DNA of 64,000 nucleotides, taken from positions 124,001 to 188,000 of the forward strand of contig NIRF01000001.1 of NCBI GenBank assembly GCA_002878375.1. The letters run 5' to 3'. Under the pieces are notes generated by a model. It had not been told where the DNA came from. It saw nothing but the letters and a program-made list of their open reading frames with translations, and made no database searches. The stretch comes from Dictyoglomus sp. NZ13-RE01 (GTDB taxonomy: Bacteria > Dictyoglomota > Dictyoglomia > Dictyoglomales > Dictyoglomaceae). Positions 4,062 to 13,784 of this stretch are shown piece by piece. The position numbers and the translations under genes are program-made. Positions within the stretch are counted from its first letter, which is position 1. Each line of letters begins with the position of its first letter.

Positions 4062-5849
4062 ATGACTGAGAATTCCTTATATGAAAAAGCATTAAGTTTT
4101 CCTGAGGCTCCAGGGGTATATATCTTTAAGGATACCCAGGGAAGAGTAATTTATGTTGGAAAGTCTAAATCCCTCAAAAAAAGAGTACTTTCTTATTTTA
4201 AAGACAATTCTATCAAAAGCCAATTAATCTTAAAAAGAGCAAAGGATTTAGACTACATTATTACCGATTCTGAAGTGGAAGCATTCCTATTAGAATCCGT
4301 ATTAATCAAAAAGAATAAACCCATATTTAATGTGCAATTAAGAGATGACAAACAATATCCATTATTAAAGCTAACTCTTAATGAACCATATCCAAGATTA
4401 ATTCTTTCAAGAAGAATTGAAAATGATAATGCAAGATATTTTGGACCATTTCCCCAGGGGAGTACAGTAAGGGAAACTATTTCAATAGTTAAAAAGATAT
4501 TTAATCTTAGGAGTTGTAAGTGGAATTTACCTAATAAAAAGCCTAAAAGACCATGTATCTATTATGATTTGAAAAGATGTTATGCTCCATGTCAAGGATA
4601 TATTACTCAGGAAGAGTATAAGAAGATTGTTGATGAAGTTCTATTATTCTTAGAAGGAAAATATCAAGAATTGATAAAGATACTTATGGAAAAAATGAGA
4701 CAATCTGCAGAAAAATTAGAGTTTGAAAAAGCCATTAAGTATAGAGAGCAGATAAGATATTTACAAAATCTTGGTGAAAAGCAGAAAATTATCTCCTTTA
4801 ACAATGAAGATAAGGATTTAATTCAGATTGTTCGTGAGGATGGTACCGCTAAAGCATTAGTCTATCTTATAAGGGAAGGTAAATTAGTGGAGAAAAGATT
4901 ACATACTTTAAAGATTCCTCATACCGAAGATATATCAGTAAAAGAAATTCTTACTGGATTTTTAACTCAATATTATTCCCAAAGGGATATCCCAAGTAAA
5001 GTTATCATTCCAGTAGATTTGGAAGAGGAAAAAGAAGATCTGGAAAAATTTTTATCTAATAAAAAAGGTATTCATGTAAGCATAAAGCTTCCAGAGGGAG
5101 AAGAAATTGAGCTAATGGATATGGCTTTAAAGGACTTGAATATAATTGAGATTAAAAAGGATAAGATATGGAGAGGATTATTAGAATTACAAAAAATTTT
5201 CAATCTTGATTCAATTCCTCTTTGGATTGAAGGGTATGATATATCCAATCTTCAGGGTAAAGAAGCGGTAGGATCGAGAGTCGTTTTTTATAAAGGATTG
5301 CCCTACAAAGATAGATATAGAAGATACAAGATAAAATTTACTGATGAAGAACCAAATGATTATCAAATGCTTCAGGAAGTTATGGAGAGAAGGCTTAATG
5401 ATAAAGAAGATGAAATTTCAGATGTAATATTAATAGATGGAGGGAAAGGACAGTTAAATGCAGTCTTAGAGGTGTTTAAAAAATATAATATATATCCCAA
5501 ACTAATTATTGCATTAGCTAAGAGAGAGGAAGAAATATATGTTCCAGGTAAGAAGGATCCTATAAAATTGGAAAAGGATTCACCTGCTTTACATATCTTA
5601 CAAAATGTTAGAGATGAAGCCCATAGATTTGCTCTTTCATACCATAGAAAATTAAGAGGTAAGAAGATTATAAATAGTCAAATTTTAAATATTCCTGGCT
5701 TAGGTGAAAAGAGAATGAAAATATTACTGGATAAGTTTGGTAGTATAAATGAATTGAAAAAGGCTTCCTTAGATGAATTAGTAAATATAAAAGGAATTCC
5801 TAAGAATTTGGGAGAGAAGATTTATATGTATTTACATAAAGAATCATAA
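4062..5849 (+). CDS. uvrC: Excinuclease ABC subunit C
   Basis: 595-residue UvrC, the dual-incision nuclease of nucleotide excision repair. In order: GIY-YIG nuclease (residues 12-95, with APGVYIFKD and IYVGKSKSLKKR), a cysteine cluster near 150-175, UVR motif for UvrB binding (about 205-235, LEFEKAIKYREQI), the RNase H-like second nuclease domain (about 380-500, with EGYDISNLQG and LIDGGKGQ), and a C-terminal helix-hairpin-helix pair (IPGLGEKR, IKGIPKNLG). Normal length. No ribosome site precedes the ATG, and the promoter sits immediately upstream. It is a single-gene unit before the pdxS promoter. Confidence 0.97.
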   Translation: MTENSLYEKALSFPEAPGVYIFKDTQGRVIYVGKSKSLKKRVLSYFKDNSIKSQLILKRAKDLDYIITDSEVEAFLLESVLIKKNKPIFNVQLRDDKQYPLLKLTLNEPYPRLILSRRIENDNARYFGPFPQGSTVRETISIVKKIFNLRSCKWNLPNKKPKRPCIYYDLKRCYAPCQGYITQEEYKKIVDEVLLFLEGKYQELIKILMEKMRQSAEKLEFEKAIKYREQIRYLQNLGEKQKIISFNNEDKDLIQIVREDGTAKALVYLIREGKLVEKRLHTLKIPHTEDISVKEILTGFLTQYYSQRDIPSKVIIPVDLEEEKEDLEKFLSNKKGIHVSIKLPEGEEIELMDMALKDLNIIEIKKDKIWRGLLELQKIFNLDSIPLWIEGYDISNLQGKEAVGSRVVFYKGLPYKDRYRRYKIKFTDEEPNDYQMLQEVMERRLNDKEDEISDVILIDGGKGQLNAVLEVFKKYNIYPKLIIALAKREEEIYVPGKKDPIKLEKDSPALHILQNVRDEAHRFALSYHRKLRGKKIINSQILNIPGLGEKRMKILLDKFGSINELKKASLDELVNIKGIPKNLGEKIYMYLHKES

Positions 5850-5858
5850 AACTTTATT

Positions 5859-5896
5859 TTGACAAAATAAAAAAATGGGAGTATATGATGTATAAT
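5859..5896 (+). promoter_or_regulatory. Promoter of the pdxS-pdxT-mcsA operon
   Basis: TTGACA at 5859-5864 is followed after 17 bases by TATATG (5882-5887). A perfect TATAAT lies a little further on at 5891-5896 but at 26 bases from the TTGACA. Either could serve as the -10. An AAAGGGGG ribosome site at 5906-5912 follows. No CtsR-type operator (tandem heptads) is apparent. Confidence 0.55.
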
Positions 5897-5921
5897 TAAA
5901 ATTGAAAGGGGGTATATAATA

Positions 5922-6809
5922 ATGGAAATATTAATAGGAACCGAAAAGGTAAAAAGAGGGCTTGCACAAATGCTAAAAGGTGGAGTAATAATGGATGTAA
6001 CTAATGCAGAGCAAGCAGAAATTGCTGAAAGTGCAGGAGCTGTTGCAGTTATGGCATTAGAAAGGGTACCTGCGGATATAAGGGCACAAGGTGGAGTAGC
6101 AAGAATGGCAGATCCTAAGAAAATAAAGGAAATTATGTCCGCTGTTAGTATACCTGTAATGGCAAAGGTTAGAATTGGGCATTTCGTTGAAGCTCAAATA
6201 TTAGAAGCCTTAGGCGTTGACTTTATAGATGAAAGCGAGGTTTTAACTCCTGCGGACGAAAAATATCATATAAATAAACATATGTTTAAGGTGCCTTTTG
6301 TATGTGGAGCAAGAGACTTAGGAGAAGCTCTAAGAAGAATAGCAGAAGGAGCAGCAATGATTAGAACAAAAGGTGAGGCAGGAACAGGAAATGTGGTTGA
6401 GGCAGTAAGACATATGAGGCAAATAATGGATGAGATAAGAAGTCTTGCACTCCTTCCAGATGAAGAATTAGTGACAAAAGCTAAAGAATTAGGAGCTCCT
6501 TTAGATCTCGTCATAGAGACGAAGAAGTTAGGAAGACTTCCAGTAGTCAATTTTGCAGCTGGTGGAATAGCAACTCCTGCGGATGCTGCATTGATGATGC
6601 AACTTGGTGCTGATGGTGTATTTGTTGGTTCTGGTATCTTTAAATCAAAGGATCCTAAAAAGAGAGCAAGAGCAATAGTTCTTGCCGTAACTTATTACAA
6701 TGATCCTTATATTCTTGCGGAAATATCAGAAGACTTAGGTGAGCCAATGCCTGGTATAGATGTTAGACAACTTTCAGATAAAGATTTATTACAAGTAAGA
6801 GGTTGGTAA
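5922..6809 (+). CDS. pdxS: Pyridoxal 5'-phosphate synthase, PdxS subunit
   Basis: 295-residue (beta/alpha)8 synthase that makes vitamin B6 from ribose 5-phosphate, glyceraldehyde 3-phosphate and ammonia in the DXP-independent route. The first Schiff-base lysine is in MAKVRIGH (near residue 81) and the second in RTKGEAGTG (near 149). The phosphate loop [10 protein letters not shown] and [10 protein letters not shown] are intact. Length is normal. It receives ammonia from PdxT, encoded just downstream. Confidence 0.98.
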
Positions 6810-6811
6810 AA

Positions 6812-7381
6812 ATGAAGGTAGGAATATTAGCAATTCAAGGTTCTGTTGAAGAACATAAAAAATCACTTGAAAGATTAAATATTGAAAGCGTTCTTGTTAA
6901 GAAAGCAAAAGACTTAGATTTTATAGATGGATTAATCTTGCCTGGTGGAGAAAGCACAACTTTCTTAACCATATTGAAAAATATGGACATGTTTGATTAT
7001 TTGGGAGAAAAAATTAGGAATGGACTCCCTATAATGGCAACTTGTGCTGGATTAATTATATTGGCTAAACATATAGAGAATCATCCAGAGCAAGAAACTC
7101 TTGGCGTTTTAGATATTACTATATCAAGGAATGCTTATGGTAGACAGAGAGAAAGTTTTGTAACTTATCTAAATATTCCTATTTTGGGAGATGCTCCCTT
7201 TGAATCAGTTTTTATTAGAGCTCCTCAAATATTAAGCGTTGGAGAAAAAGTTAAGGTACATGCTACTTTTAATGAAAAGCCTGTTTTTGTGGAAGAAGGA
7301 AATATTTTAGGTTTAACTTTTCATCCAGAACTTACTGAGGATCTCAGAATACATAAATACTTTATTCAAAAGATTAGTTGA
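6812..7381 (+). CDS. pdxT: Pyridoxal 5'-phosphate synthase, glutaminase subunit PdxT
   Basis: 189-residue class I glutamine amidotransferase that feeds ammonia into PdxS. The oxyanion motif LPGGESTT, the nucleophile Cys in ATCAGLI (near residue 79) and the His-Glu pair in TFHPEL near the C-terminus complete the triad. I chose the ATG at 6812, two bases after the pdxS stop, which gives the usual [10 protein letters not shown] start; a TTG three codons upstream is possible. Its end overlaps the region preceding mcsA. Confidence 0.97.
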
Positions 7382-7383
7382 AT

Positions 7384-7839
7384 ATGCTCTGTCAAAATTG
7401 TAAGAAGGAGCAGGCGGAATATTTTATAGTAATAAATGAGGGAGATAAAACAAAAAAACTATCTCTCTGTAGGAATTGTTTTATTGATATTTATAAAAAA
7501 TTGTTAGGTGAGACTTTTAATATGTTATTAAATATATTTGATAAAAATTTTGGAGATGTTAAAAGGTGTCCTACTTGTGGCAGATCATTAGATGAAATTT
7601 TAGAGAGCAAAAAAGTAGGATGCTTTAACTGTGTTAAAACTTTTGGTGATGAAATAAATAAATTAGTTGAGAAAATACATGGCAAAAAGGTCTACAAAGG
7701 GAAGACACCTCTTTTCCATGGCGATAAAAGAGAGGAAATATTAAGAAGTAAGATTCTCTTATCAAAAGCTATAGAAGAGGAGGATTATGAGAAGGCAGCT
7801 AAGATTAGAGACTATTTAAAAAATTTGGAGAAGGGTTGA
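7384..7839 (+). CDS. mcsA: McsA-like zinc protein with UVR motif
   Basis: 151-residue McsA homologue, in Firmicutes the activator of the arginine kinase McsB and a CtsR modulator. Four CxxC pairs (CQNC, CRNC, CPTC, CFNC) in residues 1-85 should bind two zinc ions. The C-terminus carries a UVR motif (IEEEDYEKAAKIRDYLKNL), expected to contact McsB or ClpC. ATG at 7384 is two bases after the pdxT stop; a TTG two codons earlier is possible. Four bases separate it from the McsB-like gene. No ctsR gene is present here. Confidence 0.88.
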   Translation: MLCQNCKKEQAEYFIVINEGDKTKKLSLCRNCFIDIYKKLLGETFNMLLNIFDKNFGDVKRCPTCGRSLDEILESKKVGCFNCVKTFGDEINKLVEKIHGKKVYKGKTPLFHGDKREEILRSKILLSKAIEEEDYEKAAKIRDYLKNLEKG

Positions 7840-7843
7840 AGTC

Positions 7844-8890
7844 ATGAATAATTTTGTATATAAATATTTGGGCTGGATTAATGATGATTTTTCTTATAGA
7901 GATGTATTTATTAGGACGAAAATCCGCCTGTTAAGAAATGTGGCGGATTTTCCTTTTCCTGAGGAGCTTGATGAAAAGAAAAGAAAAAGATTTTTGAATA
8001 GTATTGATTGGTGTTTAAAAAATGATAGTTTTTTAAAAAATTTTAACTATATAAATTTTGAAAAAGTACCCCATAATATAGCAATTTCATTAGTGGAAAA
8101 GGGTATTATTGATAATGAAATTAAGAATAATGAAGGTAAAAGCTTATTGATAGATAAAAAGGGAGCTACAAGCATTTTGATAAATGAAGAAGAACACTTC
8201 CAATTCCAAAAACTTGTTGCTGGTTTTGATTATGAAGATAGTTTGTTTGAGCTTTTTAATTTGGAAGACATTTTTTCACAATATTTTAAATTTGCGTATG
8301 AACCTAAATTGGGTTATATTACATCATCTATAGAAAATTGGGGTCATGGAATAAAAATAACTTCTATAATTCAATTAACTGGGCTTTCTCAGAGTGGTGA
8401 ACTTTCTTCTCTAAGTTCATATTTAAAGAAAAATAAAATTAATTTAGTAAAGCTTTATGAGGAATATGATTACACTATTGGAAGTCTATTTAAAATAACT
8501 ATAGAGTCTGGAATATCATCTTCAGGTACTTTAGAGACAAAAGTAAAGAGAATTATAAATAAAATTGTAGAGAAAGAGAGAGAGGCAAGAAATTACTTAA
8601 TGGAAGAAGATAAAATATTTTTAGAGGATTTGGTGAGTAAATCTGTAGGAATGATAAAATATAGCAAGTTATTAAGTTTTATTGGGGCTTTGGAATTGCT
8701 TTCAAATATAAGATTGGGTAAATATCTTGGAATTGTGTCCATCCCTGTGAAACTTATTGATGTTCTTTTTATATTGGTTCATCCAGTCCATCTTCAAATG
8801 AGATATGGTGGGAGTCTAAAATCTCCCCACATAGAAATTTTGCGAGCAAATTTATTGCGTGAAGTTTTCAAAAGTTATAAAATAGTATAG
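7844..8890 (+). CDS. McsB-like protein arginine kinase homologue, active site degenerate
   Basis: 348 residues, placed between mcsA and clpC as in Bacillus. The phosphagen-kinase fold is recognisable end to end: VFIRTKIRLLRN, LINEEEHFQFQ, GYITSSIENWGHGIK, LYEEYDYTIG and a C-terminal RANLLRE. Set against McsB (alignment by eye from memory), several ATP-contact arginines are replaced: the SSRIR position reads TKIR, EEDHIRIQ reads EEEHFQFQ, GLRAS reads GIKIT, and VRGIYGEG has no Arg. The Cys of TSCPTN is Ser, and the RDxxRA allosteric motif reads IEILRA. The glutamate of the GEG motif and the EE pair remain. It may be a pseudokinase or an adaptor. Confidence 0.8.
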   Translation: MNNFVYKYLGWINDDFSYRDVFIRTKIRLLRNVADFPFPEELDEKKRKRFLNSIDWCLKNDSFLKNFNYINFEKVPHNIAISLVEKGIIDNEIKNNEGKSLLIDKKGATSILINEEEHFQFQKLVAGFDYEDSLFELFNLEDIFSQYFKFAYEPKLGYITSSIENWGHGIKITSIIQLTGLSQSGELSSLSSYLKKNKINLVKLYEEYDYTIGSLFKITIESGISSSGTLETKVKRIINKIVEKEREARNYLMEEDKIFLEDLVSKSVGMIKYSKLLSFIGALELLSNIRLGKYLGIVSIPVKLIDVLFILVHPVHLQMRYGGSLKSPHIEILRANLLREVFKSYKIV

Positions 8891-8918: not shown

Positions 8919-11369
8919 ATGATGGACAAACTAACACAAAGAGCATATAGAGTACTCTTATTGGCACAAGAGGAGGCAAGAAGACTCAACTACTCTACAG
9001 TTGGGACTGAGCATATTCTATTAGGTCTTATTCGTGAAGAAGGGGGAGTTGCTGCCCAAGCCCTAATCAACTTGGGATTGGATCTTAATTACTTGAGGGC
9101 AGAAATTGAGCGTCTTATTGGTCGTGGAGATGGGACCTCCTATGGAGCACTTCCCTTTACTTCTCGAGCTAAAAAGGTCTTAGAATATGCTTCGGAGTCT
9201 GCTCAAGAACTTAATCATAATTACATAGGTACAGAACACTTATTGTTAGGACTATTAAAAGAGGGAGAGGGTGTTGCAGCTCATGTCTTGGAAGAGATGG
9301 GAGTAAGGCTTGAAGATGTAACTATTGAAATTTTAAAAATATTAGGTGAACCTATCGATCCAAGTAAACTAAGAAGTAGAGGATTAACCACACAAAGGAA
9401 GAGAAAACCAATTACTGCTACTTTAGATGAATTTGGTAGAGATTTAACTCAGCTTGCAAGACAAGGAAAGCTTGATCCCATAATTGGTAGAGAGAAGGAA
9501 TTGGAGAGAATTATTCAAATACTTAGCAGAAGAACCAAGAATAATCCTGTATTAGTAGGAGAGCCAGGAGTTGGTAAAACTGCTATTGTTGAAGGATTGG
9601 CACAAAAAATTGTTATGAATGAGGTACCTGAGGTTCTCATGAATAAGAGAATTGTTGCTATAGATATGGGAACAATAATTGCAGGTACTAAATATAGAGG
9701 AGAATTTGAGGAAAGAATGCAGAGAATAATAGAAGAAGTAAAGATGGCAAAGAATGTAATACTCTTTATTGATGAGATACATACCTTAGTTGGAGCAGGT
9801 GCTGCAGAAGGTGCAGTGGATGCAGCAAATATTTTAAAGCCATCTTTAGCTAAAGGTGAGATCCAGTTAATTGGAGCAACTACACCTACCGAATACAGAA
9901 AATATATTGAAAAAGATGGTGCATTAGAACGAAGATTCCAACCCGTAAGAGTAATGGAGCCAACTTACGAGGAGACTATTCAGATTTTGAAGGGGTTAAG
10001 AGAAAGGTATGAAAACTTCCATAGGGTAAAAATTCCTGATGAGACCATAGAGGAAGCAGTTAAACTTTCCGTTAGATATATTACAGATAGATTCTTACCT
10101 GACAAAGCTATTGATATTATAGACGAAGCATCAGCGAGAGTAAGGCTAATGAGGGTTAAAAACTCTGCCTTCAGCAATTTAGAGAAAGAATTGCAGAGAA
10201 TTAGAGAACAAAAAGAAATTGCAATTAAGAATCAAAATTATGAGCTTGCTGCAAGACTAAGGGATGATGAGAGAAAATTGGAGGAGTACATAAGAAATCT
10301 TGAAGATACATCTTCGGTGGAAGAAAGAGTTGTTACACCTGAAGATGTAGCTCAAGTTGTATCAATATGGACTGGAATTCCTGTGGCACAACTATTAATG
10401 GAGGAAAGAGAAAGACTGCTAAGGATGGAGGAAGAATTACATAAAAGAATTATATCTCAAGACGAGGCAGTAAAAGTTGTATCCAAAGCAATAAGAAGAT
10501 CAAGATCAGGGTTAAAAGATCCAAAGAGACCTATAGGAGCCTTTTTATTCTTAGGTCCTACTGGTGTTGGAAAGACTGAGCTTGCAAGAGCATTAGCAGA
10601 GTATCTCTTTGGAAATGAAAATGCCCTTATCAGACTTGATATGTCTGAATATATGGAAAGACATACAGTTTCAAGATTAATTGGAGCACCACCAGGCTAT
10701 GTGGGATATGAAGAAGGTGGTCAACTCACAGAAAAAGTACATAGAAGACCTTATTCTGTAGTTCTTTTTGATGAAATAGAAAAGGCTCATTCTGATATAT
10801 TCAATATACTATTACAGATTATGGATGATGGACAGCTTACAGACGGACAAGGAAGAAAAGTAGACTTTAAGAATACTATACTTATAATGACCTCTAATTT
10901 TGGAGCTGAGTACTTCAAGCAGGAATCTACACTAGGCTTTGCTTCTAAGGAAGATAGGGAAAAGTCCTTTGAAAATATTAAAAGCTTAATAATGAGTGAG
11001 ATAAAGAAATACTTCAGACCAGAATTTTTGAACAGATTAGATGAGATTGTATTCTTCCGTCCATTAACAAGAGACGATCTTAAGAAGATTGTAGAAATAT
11101 TATTAAAACCAGTTATAGAAAGATTAAAGGAGAAAAAGATCACATTAGAGGTTGACGATGAGGTCAAAGCCTTCCTGGTTGATAAAGGATATGACCCACT
11201 ATATGGTGCAAGACCACTTAAGAGAACTATTCAAGCCTATATTGAAGATCCATTAGCTGAATATATTTTAGAAGGAAGATTTAATGAGGGGGATGTTGTA
11301 AGAGCAGAGTTTGATAAAGAAAATAATAGAATAGAATTCAAGAAGGTGACCTTAGTAGCAAACAGATAA
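8919..11369 (+). CDS. clpC: AAA+ unfoldase ClpC
   Basis: 816-residue Hsp100 unfoldase that partners ClpP in protein quality control. Domains: two N-terminal Clp repeats (residues 1-145, each with GTEH(I/L)LLGL), first AAA+ module with Walker A GEPGVGKT and Walker B LFIDEIH, a short coiled middle domain with a UVR-like segment ([19 protein letters not shown], near 430-445), and second AAA+ module with GPTGVGKT and LFDEIEKAH. The N-domain glutamates that bind phospho-arginine in Bacillus appear kept ([20 protein letters not shown]). AAGGAGGTG lies eight bases before the ATG. Fourth gene of the pdxS-led operon. Confidence 0.97.
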
Positions 11370-11382
11370 TGCTTGAAATTTA

Positions 11383-12735
11383 ATGACAAAGCTAAAGGTA
11401 AAGTATGTATGTCAGGTTTGCGGTTACGAATCAATAGGATGGTTTGGAAAATGTCCTAACTGTGGTACTTTTGGCTCATTAGTAGAAGTAAAGGAAGAGC
11501 CATCACAAAGAAAAGAAACAAGACTTGAAGCTAAAACATATTATTTAAAGGATGTAGACTTAGCTGAGACTAAAAGAATAATAAGTAATTTTAAAGAATT
11601 TGATGATTTATTAGGAGGGGGTATTGTTCCTGGTTCTCTCTTACTCCTTGCAGGTGAGCCTGGTATTGGAAAATCTACTTTATTACTTCAGCTTGCGTTT
11701 TCTTTACAAGAAAATGGTTACAATGTTCTTTATGTATCAGGTGAAGAATCTTTATCTCAGATAAAATACAGAGCGGAAAGAATTTCATCTAAAATACCTC
11801 CTGTAAAATTTTTGGCTGAAAATAATTTAGAACTAATATTAGATATACTAAATAGAGAGAATTTTTCATTGGTTATTATTGACTCAATACAAACTATTTA
11901 TTCTGATGAATTCCCTACATCTCCTGGTAGTGTTGTACAAATTAGAGAATGTACTTCAAGATTAATGAGAGTTGCAAAGAAAAAAAATACTGCTCTTTTT
12001 CTAATTGGGCATATTACAAAAGAAGGAGATATTGCAGGTCCAAAATTATTAGAACATTTAGTGGATGTGGTTTTGTATTTAGAAGGGGAAAGATATCAAG
12101 AGCTAAGAATACTAAGAGCTATTAAAAATAGATTTGGACCCACAAATGATCTTGCCCTATATGAGATGAGAAACGATGGTCTTGTGGAAGTTTCTAATGT
12201 ATCTAAGAAATTATTAGAAGGAAGAAATAAAAACATATCAGGTTCTTTAGTGGTTCCTGTGATTGAAGGGACAAAGTCTATCTTGGTAGAGATACAATCA
12301 TTAATAAGTAGAAGTAATACTACATTTCCACGTAGGCTTAGCATAGGTGTAGATATAAATAAACTGGCGATGATAATAGCAATTCTTGAGAAAAAACTAA
12401 ATTTAAAACTTTTTGATAAGGATGTATTTTTTAATGTAATTGGAGGAATAAAAATTAATGAACCTGCAATCGATTTAGGTATTGCATTTTCTTTAATTTC
12501 TTCATATTATGATAATGTATTTCCAGAAGATACTGTAGTTTTTGGGGAGGTTGGCTTAGGGGGAGAGGTGCGATCAGTAAGTAATATTGAAAAAAGAATA
12601 AAAGAAGCCCACAAACTTGGCTTTAAAAAGGTAATACTACCAAGAACAGAAAGTATTTCAAAGTTTAAAGATATCATGTTATTTCCTATTTCAAGCATTG
12701 AAGAGGGGGCAAAAATAGTTTGGGGGAGAGAATAA
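11383..12735 (+). CDS. radA: DNA repair protein RadA
   Basis: 450-residue RecA-like branch-migration ATPase. It has a four-cysteine zinc finger (CQVCG...CPNCG, residues 9-28), a RecA core with Walker A GEPGIGKST near residue 90, the RadA signature KNRFG near 248, and a C-terminal Lon-protease-like domain (GVDINKLAMIIAILEKK onward). The ATG at 11383 is 13 bases after the clpC stop, so translation is probably coupled. Same neighbours as in Bacillus. Confidence 0.97.
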   Translation: MTKLKVKYVCQVCGYESIGWFGKCPNCGTFGSLVEVKEEPSQRKETRLEAKTYYLKDVDLAETKRIISNFKEFDDLLGGGIVPGSLLLLAGEPGIGKSTLLLQLAFSLQENGYNVLYVSGEESLSQIKYRAERISSKIPPVKFLAENNLELILDILNRENFSLVIIDSIQTIYSDEFPTSPGSVVQIRECTSRLMRVAKKKNTALFLIGHITKEGDIAGPKLLEHLVDVVLYLEGERYQELRILRAIKNRFGPTNDLALYEMRNDGLVEVSNVSKKLLEGRNKNISGSLVVPVIEGTKSILVEIQSLISRSNTTFPRRLSIGVDINKLAMIIAILEKKLNLKLFDKDVFFNVIGGIKINEPAIDLGIAFSLISSYYDNVFPEDTVVFGEVGLGGEVRSVSNIEKRIKEAHKLGFKKVILPRTESISKFKDIMLFPISSIEEGAKIVWGRE

Positions 12736-13784
12736 TGGAACTTAAAAAATTTGCTATTAATGCTATTAAAACTGTTGCCCCTGGAACTCTATTAAGAGAG
12801 GCTTTAGAGCAAATTTTAAAAGCTAAAACTGGAGCGTTAATTGTTATTGGGGACCTTGATAAGATCAAACCTTTAATGAATGGGGGCTTTCCCTTAGATA
12901 TTGATTTTACTCCAAATAAATTATATGAGCTTTCAAAAATGGATGGAGCTATTATTTTAAGTAAGGATTGCAAAAAAATTCTTTTTGCAAATGTAATACT
13001 TCTTCCTGACTCAAATATACCATCCCAGGAAACAGGCGCGAGGCACGCAACTGCGGAAAGAGTTGCAAGACAGACTGGTCAACTGGTTATTAGTGTATCC
13101 CAAAGAAAGGATACAATAACCCTATACCAAAACGACTGGAAATATAGATTAAGAGATGTTGAAGAAATTTTAGCAAAATCAACTCAGGCATTACAAACCT
13201 TAGAAAGATATAGGAATATATTTGATAACCTTCAACAAAGATTAAATACCTTGGAGTTAGAAAATCAAGTTACTATTTCAGAGGTACTTTTCTATTTACA
13301 TAGAATCGGAATGCTTATCGCTATTGGAAAAGAAGTAGAAACTTATCTTTTAGAACTGGGAAATGAGGGTAGATTGATAGAATTACAATTGGAGACTCTA
13401 CTAGCTGGAGTATATGAAGAGGGGCTTCTTGTGGTAAAGGATTATGCAAAGAAAGACGATTATGAGTCTATATACGAAAATCTTATAAATAATTTTAAGG
13501 GAGATTTTCAAACCTTCTCCATAGTGGCAGGAGAAAATTTGGGATATTCCAAAGAGGATATAAATTTGAATATTACTATTATTCCTCGAGGATATAGATT
13601 ACTTAGTAGATTATCATTTATACCTGCTAATGTTATGGATAATATTATCAAACATTTTGGAAATCTTCCCAAGATACTTGAGAGTAGTTTAGAGGATCTC
13701 GATAGTATCGAGGGTATTGGGGAGGTGAGAGCAAAAAGAATCAAAGAGGGACTTCTAAGACTTCAAAAATCAGTAATTCTCTAA
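12735..13784 (+). CDS. disA: DNA integrity scanning protein DisA (diadenylate cyclase)
   Basis: 349-residue protein combining an N-terminal DAC domain (residues 1-145), a helical linker and a C-terminal helix-hairpin-helix DNA-binding region (SIEGIGEVRAKRIKEG). Active DisA makes c-di-AMP from two ATP and signals DNA damage. The DGA motif is intact (MDGAIIL). The second motif, normally RHR in GTRHRTAER, reads RHA in GARHATAER, so a phosphate-binding Arg is missing; activity is uncertain. I chose the ATG overlapping the radA stop by one base (TAATG), with GGGGGAGAG upstream, rather than the TTG at 12720. Confidence 0.95.
   Translation: MELKKFAINAIKTVAPGTLLREALEQILKAKTGALIVIGDLDKIKPLMNGGFPLDIDFTPNKLYELSKMDGAIILSKDCKKILFANVILLPDSNIPSQETGARHATAERVARQTGQLVISVSQRKDTITLYQNDWKYRLRDVEEILAKSTQALQTLERYRNIFDNLQQRLNTLELENQVTISEVLFYLHRIGMLIAIGKEVETYLLELGNEGRLIELQLETLLAGVYEEGLLVVKDYAKKDDYESIYENLINNFKGDFQTFSIVAGENLGYSKEDINLNITIIPRGYRLLSRLSFIPANVMDNIIKHFGNLPKILESSLEDLDSIEGIGEVRAKRIKEGLLRLQKSVIL

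Follow-up and report, generated by a model that had tools for sequence, protein, structure and literature searches.

The McsB protein of Dictyoglomus sp. NZ13-RE01, a member of a genus of heat-loving bacteria, retains the McsB fold around a degenerate arginine-kinase active site and an altered phospho-arginine receptor site. We interpret it as a pseudo-arginine-kinase (pseudo-McsB) that has been kept as an McsA-bound, phosphorylation-independent adaptor or regulator of ClpC(P), a reading to which we assign a probability of roughly 60%. That the protein has no arginine kinase activity is, as far as sequence can tell, very probable; that it still acts together with McsA on ClpC or on ClpC clients, independently of phosphorylation, is likely, at a lower level of confidence. 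The gene lies within a 64,000-nucleotide stretch of contig NIRF01000001.1 (the window, to whose numbering the coordinates in Table 1 refer). The Dictyoglomota are represented in our collection by seven genomes: the host, G001 and G002, which belong to one genus, and G003–G006, which belong to its sister genus.

The open reading frame is intact from its ATG start through all 348 codons, with mcsA and clpC on either side, so that the association expected of an mcsB gene is present. By profile its product belongs to the ATP:guanido phosphotransferases (Pfam PF00217, 1.2e-22), and the host genome (1.93 Mb, 99.99% complete) encodes no other PF00217 protein. McsB structures are its best solved relatives (phmmer, 1.2e-31 to 6fh1), and AlphaFold2, working from 55 aligned sequences, predicted a model of high confidence (mean pLDDT 93.8, pTM 0.91) that Foldseek matched to the G. 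stearothermophilus and B. subtilis McsB structures (6fh1, 6tv6) with a TM of 0.89–0.92 over ~350 columns. Both the phosphotransferase and the dimerisation domain are accounted for by the model and the phmmer match, and the fold is thus legible end to end, as an earlier note on this DNA had claimed. The protein falls far below the curated NCBIfam cut-offs (178.4 vs 500 bits for NF053707, 215.9 vs 385 for NF002194).

Table 1. Features of the pseudo-mcsB locus in window coordinates. In the residue rows, the first residue named is numbered as in pseudo-McsB and the second as in B. subtilis McsB; Arg341 carries its B. subtilis number.
Feature	Positions	Strand	Description
uvrC, pdxS, pdxT	4062..7381	+	Upstream neighbours, conserved; same order in both genera
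mcsA	7378..7839	+	153 aa; UVR motif and both zinc fingers (CxxC...CxxC) retained; starts with TTG at 7378 or with ATG at 7384
pseudo-mcsB	7844..8890	+	348 aa; McsB fold; arginine-kinase active site degenerate, as is the phospho-arginine receptor site
K26, replacing nucleotide-contact Arg29	7919..7921	+	Alignment; R29K kills B. subtilis McsB (PMC7235348)
E116, catalytic E121, kept	8189..8191	+	Alignment; Asn in G001, Asp in G002
Q120, replacing Arg125	8201..8203	+	Alignment; Gln in 3/3 genus genomes; R125K inactive (PMC7235348)
S162, replacing Cys167	8327..8329	+	Alignment; C167S kinase-inactive (PMC7235348)
K171, replacing Arg176	8354..8356	+	Alignment; R176K inactive (PMC7235348)
V202, replacing Arg207	8447..8449	+	Alignment; R207K inactive (PMC7235348)
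E207, catalytic E212, kept	8462..8464	+	Alignment; Asn in G001
F279, replacing Ser285 of phospho-arginine receptor site	8678..8680	+	Phe in 3/3 genus genomes; site from PMC8370763
I330-E331, replacing Arg337-Asp338 of phospho-arginine receptor site	8831..8836	+	Site from PMC8370763; R337K inactive (PMC7235348)
Arg341 of receptor site, kept	8843..8845	+	
clpC	8919..11369	+	816 aa; N-domain nearly identical to sister genus; equivalents of Glu32 and Glu106 (GTEH motifs) kept
radA, disA	11383..13784	+	Downstream neighbours, conserved; same order in both genera

In what follows, residues are numbered as in B. subtilis McsB, from an alignment with the G. stearothermophilus and B. subtilis proteins and their relatives in which the codons were checked. 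With the McsB family (PF00217; NF053707; PDB 6fh1, 6tv6, 8gqd) pseudo-McsB shares the full two-domain fold, the gene order mcsA-mcsB-clpC, and residues R31, R34-N35, E121, H123, the GY[IL]TS loop and R341-A342, whereas R29, R125, C167, R176, R207, R337, D338 and S285 are replaced and the YwlE partner is lost. The five nucleotide-contact arginines R29, R31, R125, R176 and R207 read K, R, Q, K and V, leaving one of five in place. The earlier note had picked out the same four replacements by eye, and they hold at the aligned positions; in its comparison of TKIR with SRIR the arginine-to-lysine change is real, but the threonine is not meaningful, since STRIR occurs in the sister genus. Its reading of the RDxxRA motif as IEILRA is likewise correct, and R341 is the sole survivor of the receptor site as defined in PMC8370763 (R337, D338, R341 and S285 read I, E, R and F). 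To that list we add C167S, S285F and the state of the catalytic glutamates, both kept here yet both asparagine in G001: residues 121, 212 and 167 are Glu/Glu/Ser in the host, Asn/Asn/Ser in G001 and Asp/Glu/Tyr in G002. Alignments with McsB sequences placed no other arginines at the vacated positions.

Single arginine-to-lysine changes at R29, R31, R34, R125, R176, R207 or R337 abolish the kinase activity of B. subtilis McsB in vitro, and C167S is treated as a kinase-inactive form (PMC7235348). On these data, pseudo-McsB is altered at five positions that do not tolerate even lysine (R29, R125, R176, R207 and R337), and at C167. The pattern of changes could also be read as that of a nucleotide- or phosphate-binding sensor, or of a kinase with altered chemistry, in which lysines would bind a phosphorylated ligand and the protein would phosphorylate some other acceptor or signal to McsA and ClpC. 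K29 and R31 do not vary within the genus, position 176 stays basic (K, K and R in the three genomes), so that some positive charge is left, and the host species keeps E121 and E212; but arginine-to-lysine changes here already kill the B. subtilis enzyme (PMC7235348), position 207 is a valine in the host, C167 is lost in all three genomes, and both catalytic acids are asparagine in G001. We consider this reading unlikely, including the altered kinase that the earlier note had offered as its second option, against which the G001 asparagines weigh. Because both glutamates are kept in the host and some of the replacements are lysines, weak residual nucleotide binding or activity may persist.

The degenerate state is a property of the genus. 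The McsB proteins of G001 and G002, 52–54% identical to pseudo-McsB, carry the same kind of changes, and all three share K29, Q125 and F285, lack the cysteine at 167, and have a hydrophobic residue followed by glutamate at 337–338. Those of the sister genus, which are 37–39% identical to pseudo-McsB and encoded in the same operon order, are canonical at all examined positions (catalytic, nucleotide-contact and receptor residues alike) in all four genomes. The sharing of these substitutions by three of three genomes, against the canonical state in four of four, takes them beyond chance. In a tree, the seven Dictyoglomota proteins form one clade (100% SH-aLRT) and the degenerate three a single branch within it, implying vertical inheritance from a canonical ancestor; with all four sister-genus proteins canonical, the change is a derived loss.

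Selection has continued to act on the gene. Between G001 and G002, mcsB has a dN of 0.15 and a dS of 0.81 (dN/dS ~0.19), compared with 0.09 and 0.98 between G003 and G004, and purifying selection thus acts on it in this genus, if a little less strongly than in the sister genus. The roughly twofold higher dN/dS, together with the fact that no other operon gene evolves as fast as mcsB and mcsA (~39% and ~44% identical to their sister-genus counterparts, against 52–93% for the other neighbours), is what might be said for a decaying gene, one whose activity is lost and whose frame persists by inertia or by translational coupling with clpC. A dN/dS of ~0.2 argues against this, as do intact frames in three species ~50% diverged in protein, the shared and fixed substitutions, the high-confidence intact fold and the retention of the McsA zinc fingers, and we regard such decay as very unlikely. 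Recent gene decay of mcsB was rejected on the dN/dS and the intact frames. An intact frame, purifying selection and a derived loss of catalytic residues together describe a pseudoenzyme kept by selection.

The phosphatase that would undo arginine phosphorylation shows a matching distribution. A YwlE-type sequence (C[TS]GNTCRSPMAE, in which we take the Thr of GNTCRS to be the selectivity residue) is encoded in all four sister-genus genomes in the order prmC-ywlC-ywlE-rpiB-glyA, followed to contig ends. In all three genomes of the host genus the order prmC-ywlC-rpiB-glyA is the same and ywlE is exactly missing between ywlC and rpiB; direct searches of these three genomes for YwlE returned only a CTHNSAR-type relative, which is separate from YwlE and also occurs in the sister genomes except G005. 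Three matches to a YwlE DNA pattern were discarded as not being phosphatase ORFs, which leaves the counts unaffected. YwlE is the cognate phosphatase of McsB and owes its phospho-arginine selectivity to a single residue (PMC5506225). Across bacteria, a dead McsB site goes with a missing YwlE (21/49 vs 3/26, Fisher p=0.008), although independent phylogenetic pairs are not significant; outside Dictyoglomota the link is only suggestive, and for this reason we restrict the YwlE argument to this phylum. More than half of the canonical-McsB genomes in a survey of 80 genomes are without the YwlE GNTCRS signature; these may rely on a different phosphatase or on none at all.

The change of residues essential in B. 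subtilis, its spread across the genus and the loss of the cognate YwlE in that same genus together argue that arginine phosphorylation has been lost. A still-active arginine kinase of unusual geometry, with other residues standing in for the lost arginines, would be in keeping with the presence of E121 and E212, with the lack of any other PF00217 protein in a genome that is 99.99% complete, and with the phospho-arginine pockets of ClpC, which we checked as corroboration of the loss of the circuit and found unchanged. These pockets also anchor the resting state of ClpC (PMC12583610), however, so their conservation cuts neither way, and five experimentally essential positions are changed (PMC7235348), the receptor site is lost, YwlE is cleanly absent and G001 lacks both catalytic acids. 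We regard continued kinase activity as very unlikely.

The partners are retained. The earlier note had pointed out that McsA, ClpC and the operon order are kept, and the order uvrC-pdxS-pdxT-mcsA-mcsB-clpC-radA-disA is indeed identical in both genera (in G005 and G006, to the contig ends). The host ClpC is 88–90% identical to those of G001 and G002, and ClpP was found in all seven Dictyoglomota genomes. McsA of the host genus scores 61.6 bits against a curated McsA cut-off of 210 and evolves at about the rate of McsB, while ClpC hardly changes. A stand-alone 144-residue Clp_N protein, with two repeats like those of the ClpC N-domain, is encoded in three sister-genus genomes (L053:1510-1941, L054:1495-1926 and L055:1495-1926, all on the minus strand) and was not found in the three host-genus genomes; it is possibly a free phospho-arginine reader that was lost in parallel.

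CtsR, sought as a remaining target, was found in none of the seven Dictyoglomota genomes, and neither CtsR nor CIRCE operators were found within the window. The absence of this usual target would also suit an inhibitory role, in which pseudo-McsB keeps ClpC or McsA switched off until stress sets in, and in B. subtilis ClpC does keep McsB inactive in a complex, with McsA as the stress sensor that controls McsB (PMC5506225). An adaptor and an inhibitor would look alike in sequence, and we judge the inhibitory role quite unlikely.

Pseudo-McsB is not alone in its degeneracy. We sampled 386 genomes across bacterial families, 143 of which had a PF00217 match, and scored ~140 proteins at seven essential McsB positions, calling degenerate those that kept four or fewer. 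All seven positions are kept in most of the proteins, but 25, spread over 20 families, are degenerate, and 19 of these adjoin or are fused to McsA. In this set R29, R31, E121, R125, C167, R176, R207 and E212 are conserved at 8–36%, compared with 88–100% for R34-N35, H123, G172, E251 and R341. The tree of surveyed proteins requires between six and eight state changes; well-supported branches force three or more of these, and long branches blur the exact number. Examples come from Hydrogenedentota (L119, L133, L137 and L146) and from a Spirochaetia MAG (L163); further homologues with several essential residues replaced occur in Clostridia (L117 and L118). Two lineages from different families (G262 and G125) have natural fusions of a two-zinc-finger McsA with a degenerate McsB domain (L187:3786-5468 and L192:3741-5441, both on the plus strand), in which the McsB domain was confirmed by Pfam and the McsA part was recognised from phmmer matches and the CxxC pattern. 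Like pseudo-McsB, these relatives (G009, G125, G262, Hydrogenedentota and others) have lost active-site residues and kept the structural motifs RN, H123, G172, E251 and R341, mostly beside mcsA; unlike it, they belong to other lineages and carry other replacements, and in two of them McsA is fused. We tentatively suggest that pseudo-arginine-kinases are a widespread class: about one-sixth of McsB lineages would have given up arginine phosphorylation but retained McsA and, in many cases, ClpC. Full-text literature searches, with subscription papers mostly outside their reach, returned no description of a natural kinase-dead McsB.

The retention of McsA, ClpC and ClpP, the purifying selection and the McsA-fused dead relatives make a scaffold or adaptor the best remaining explanation. 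Of the earlier suggestion that the protein kept such a role after losing arginine phosphorylation, the loss is well supported by the changed essential residues, their spread through the genus and the missing YwlE, and the role itself is probable. Pseudo-McsB would descend vertically from an active McsB whose kinase activity was lost along with the receptor site and the YwlE phosphatase, and the folded protein, bound to McsA and useful to ClpC, would have been retained. It would form a complex with McsA, as co-conservation and the fusions in two lineages suggest; this complex would bind ClpC, its clients or both, would control ClpCP as an adaptor or regulator that needs no phosphorylation, and would very probably not phosphorylate arginine. 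The McsA step draws support from the fusions and from the GY[IL]TS loop, which pseudo-McsB has kept; in the S. aureus complex, the McsA zinc finger sits on the loop that runs to the catalytic cysteine (reviewed in PMC12467219).

There is an engineered parallel in B. subtilis, where mcsB-C167S has a milder effect on MgsR turnover than deletion of the gene (half-lives of 12.3 and 17.7 min), which its authors read as a kinase-independent adaptor role of McsB (PMC7235348). Both are inactive kinases kept as folded proteins, but C167S is a single laboratory change, whereas the loss in pseudo-McsB is natural, genus-wide and at many sites. With respect to ClpC, the adaptor function of B. subtilis McsB depends on its kinase activity (PMC5506225), so that a ClpC adaptor working without kinase activity would be a step past current knowledge.

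McsB's roles as kinase and as adaptor, hard to separate in B. subtilis, appear to have been separated by nature in this genus, where the kinase site, the receptor site and the phosphatase are lost and McsA, McsB and ClpC are kept. Comparison with the sister genus is thus a direct route to what McsA-McsB does without phosphorylation. The annotation "protein arginine kinase" needs care, as genomes of this kind, with about one-sixth of McsB proteins affected in our sample, may make no phospho-arginine. If the degenerate proteins are indeed a widespread class, McsA-McsB would have an original, phosphorylation-independent function with ClpC, and arginine tagging would be a separable layer.
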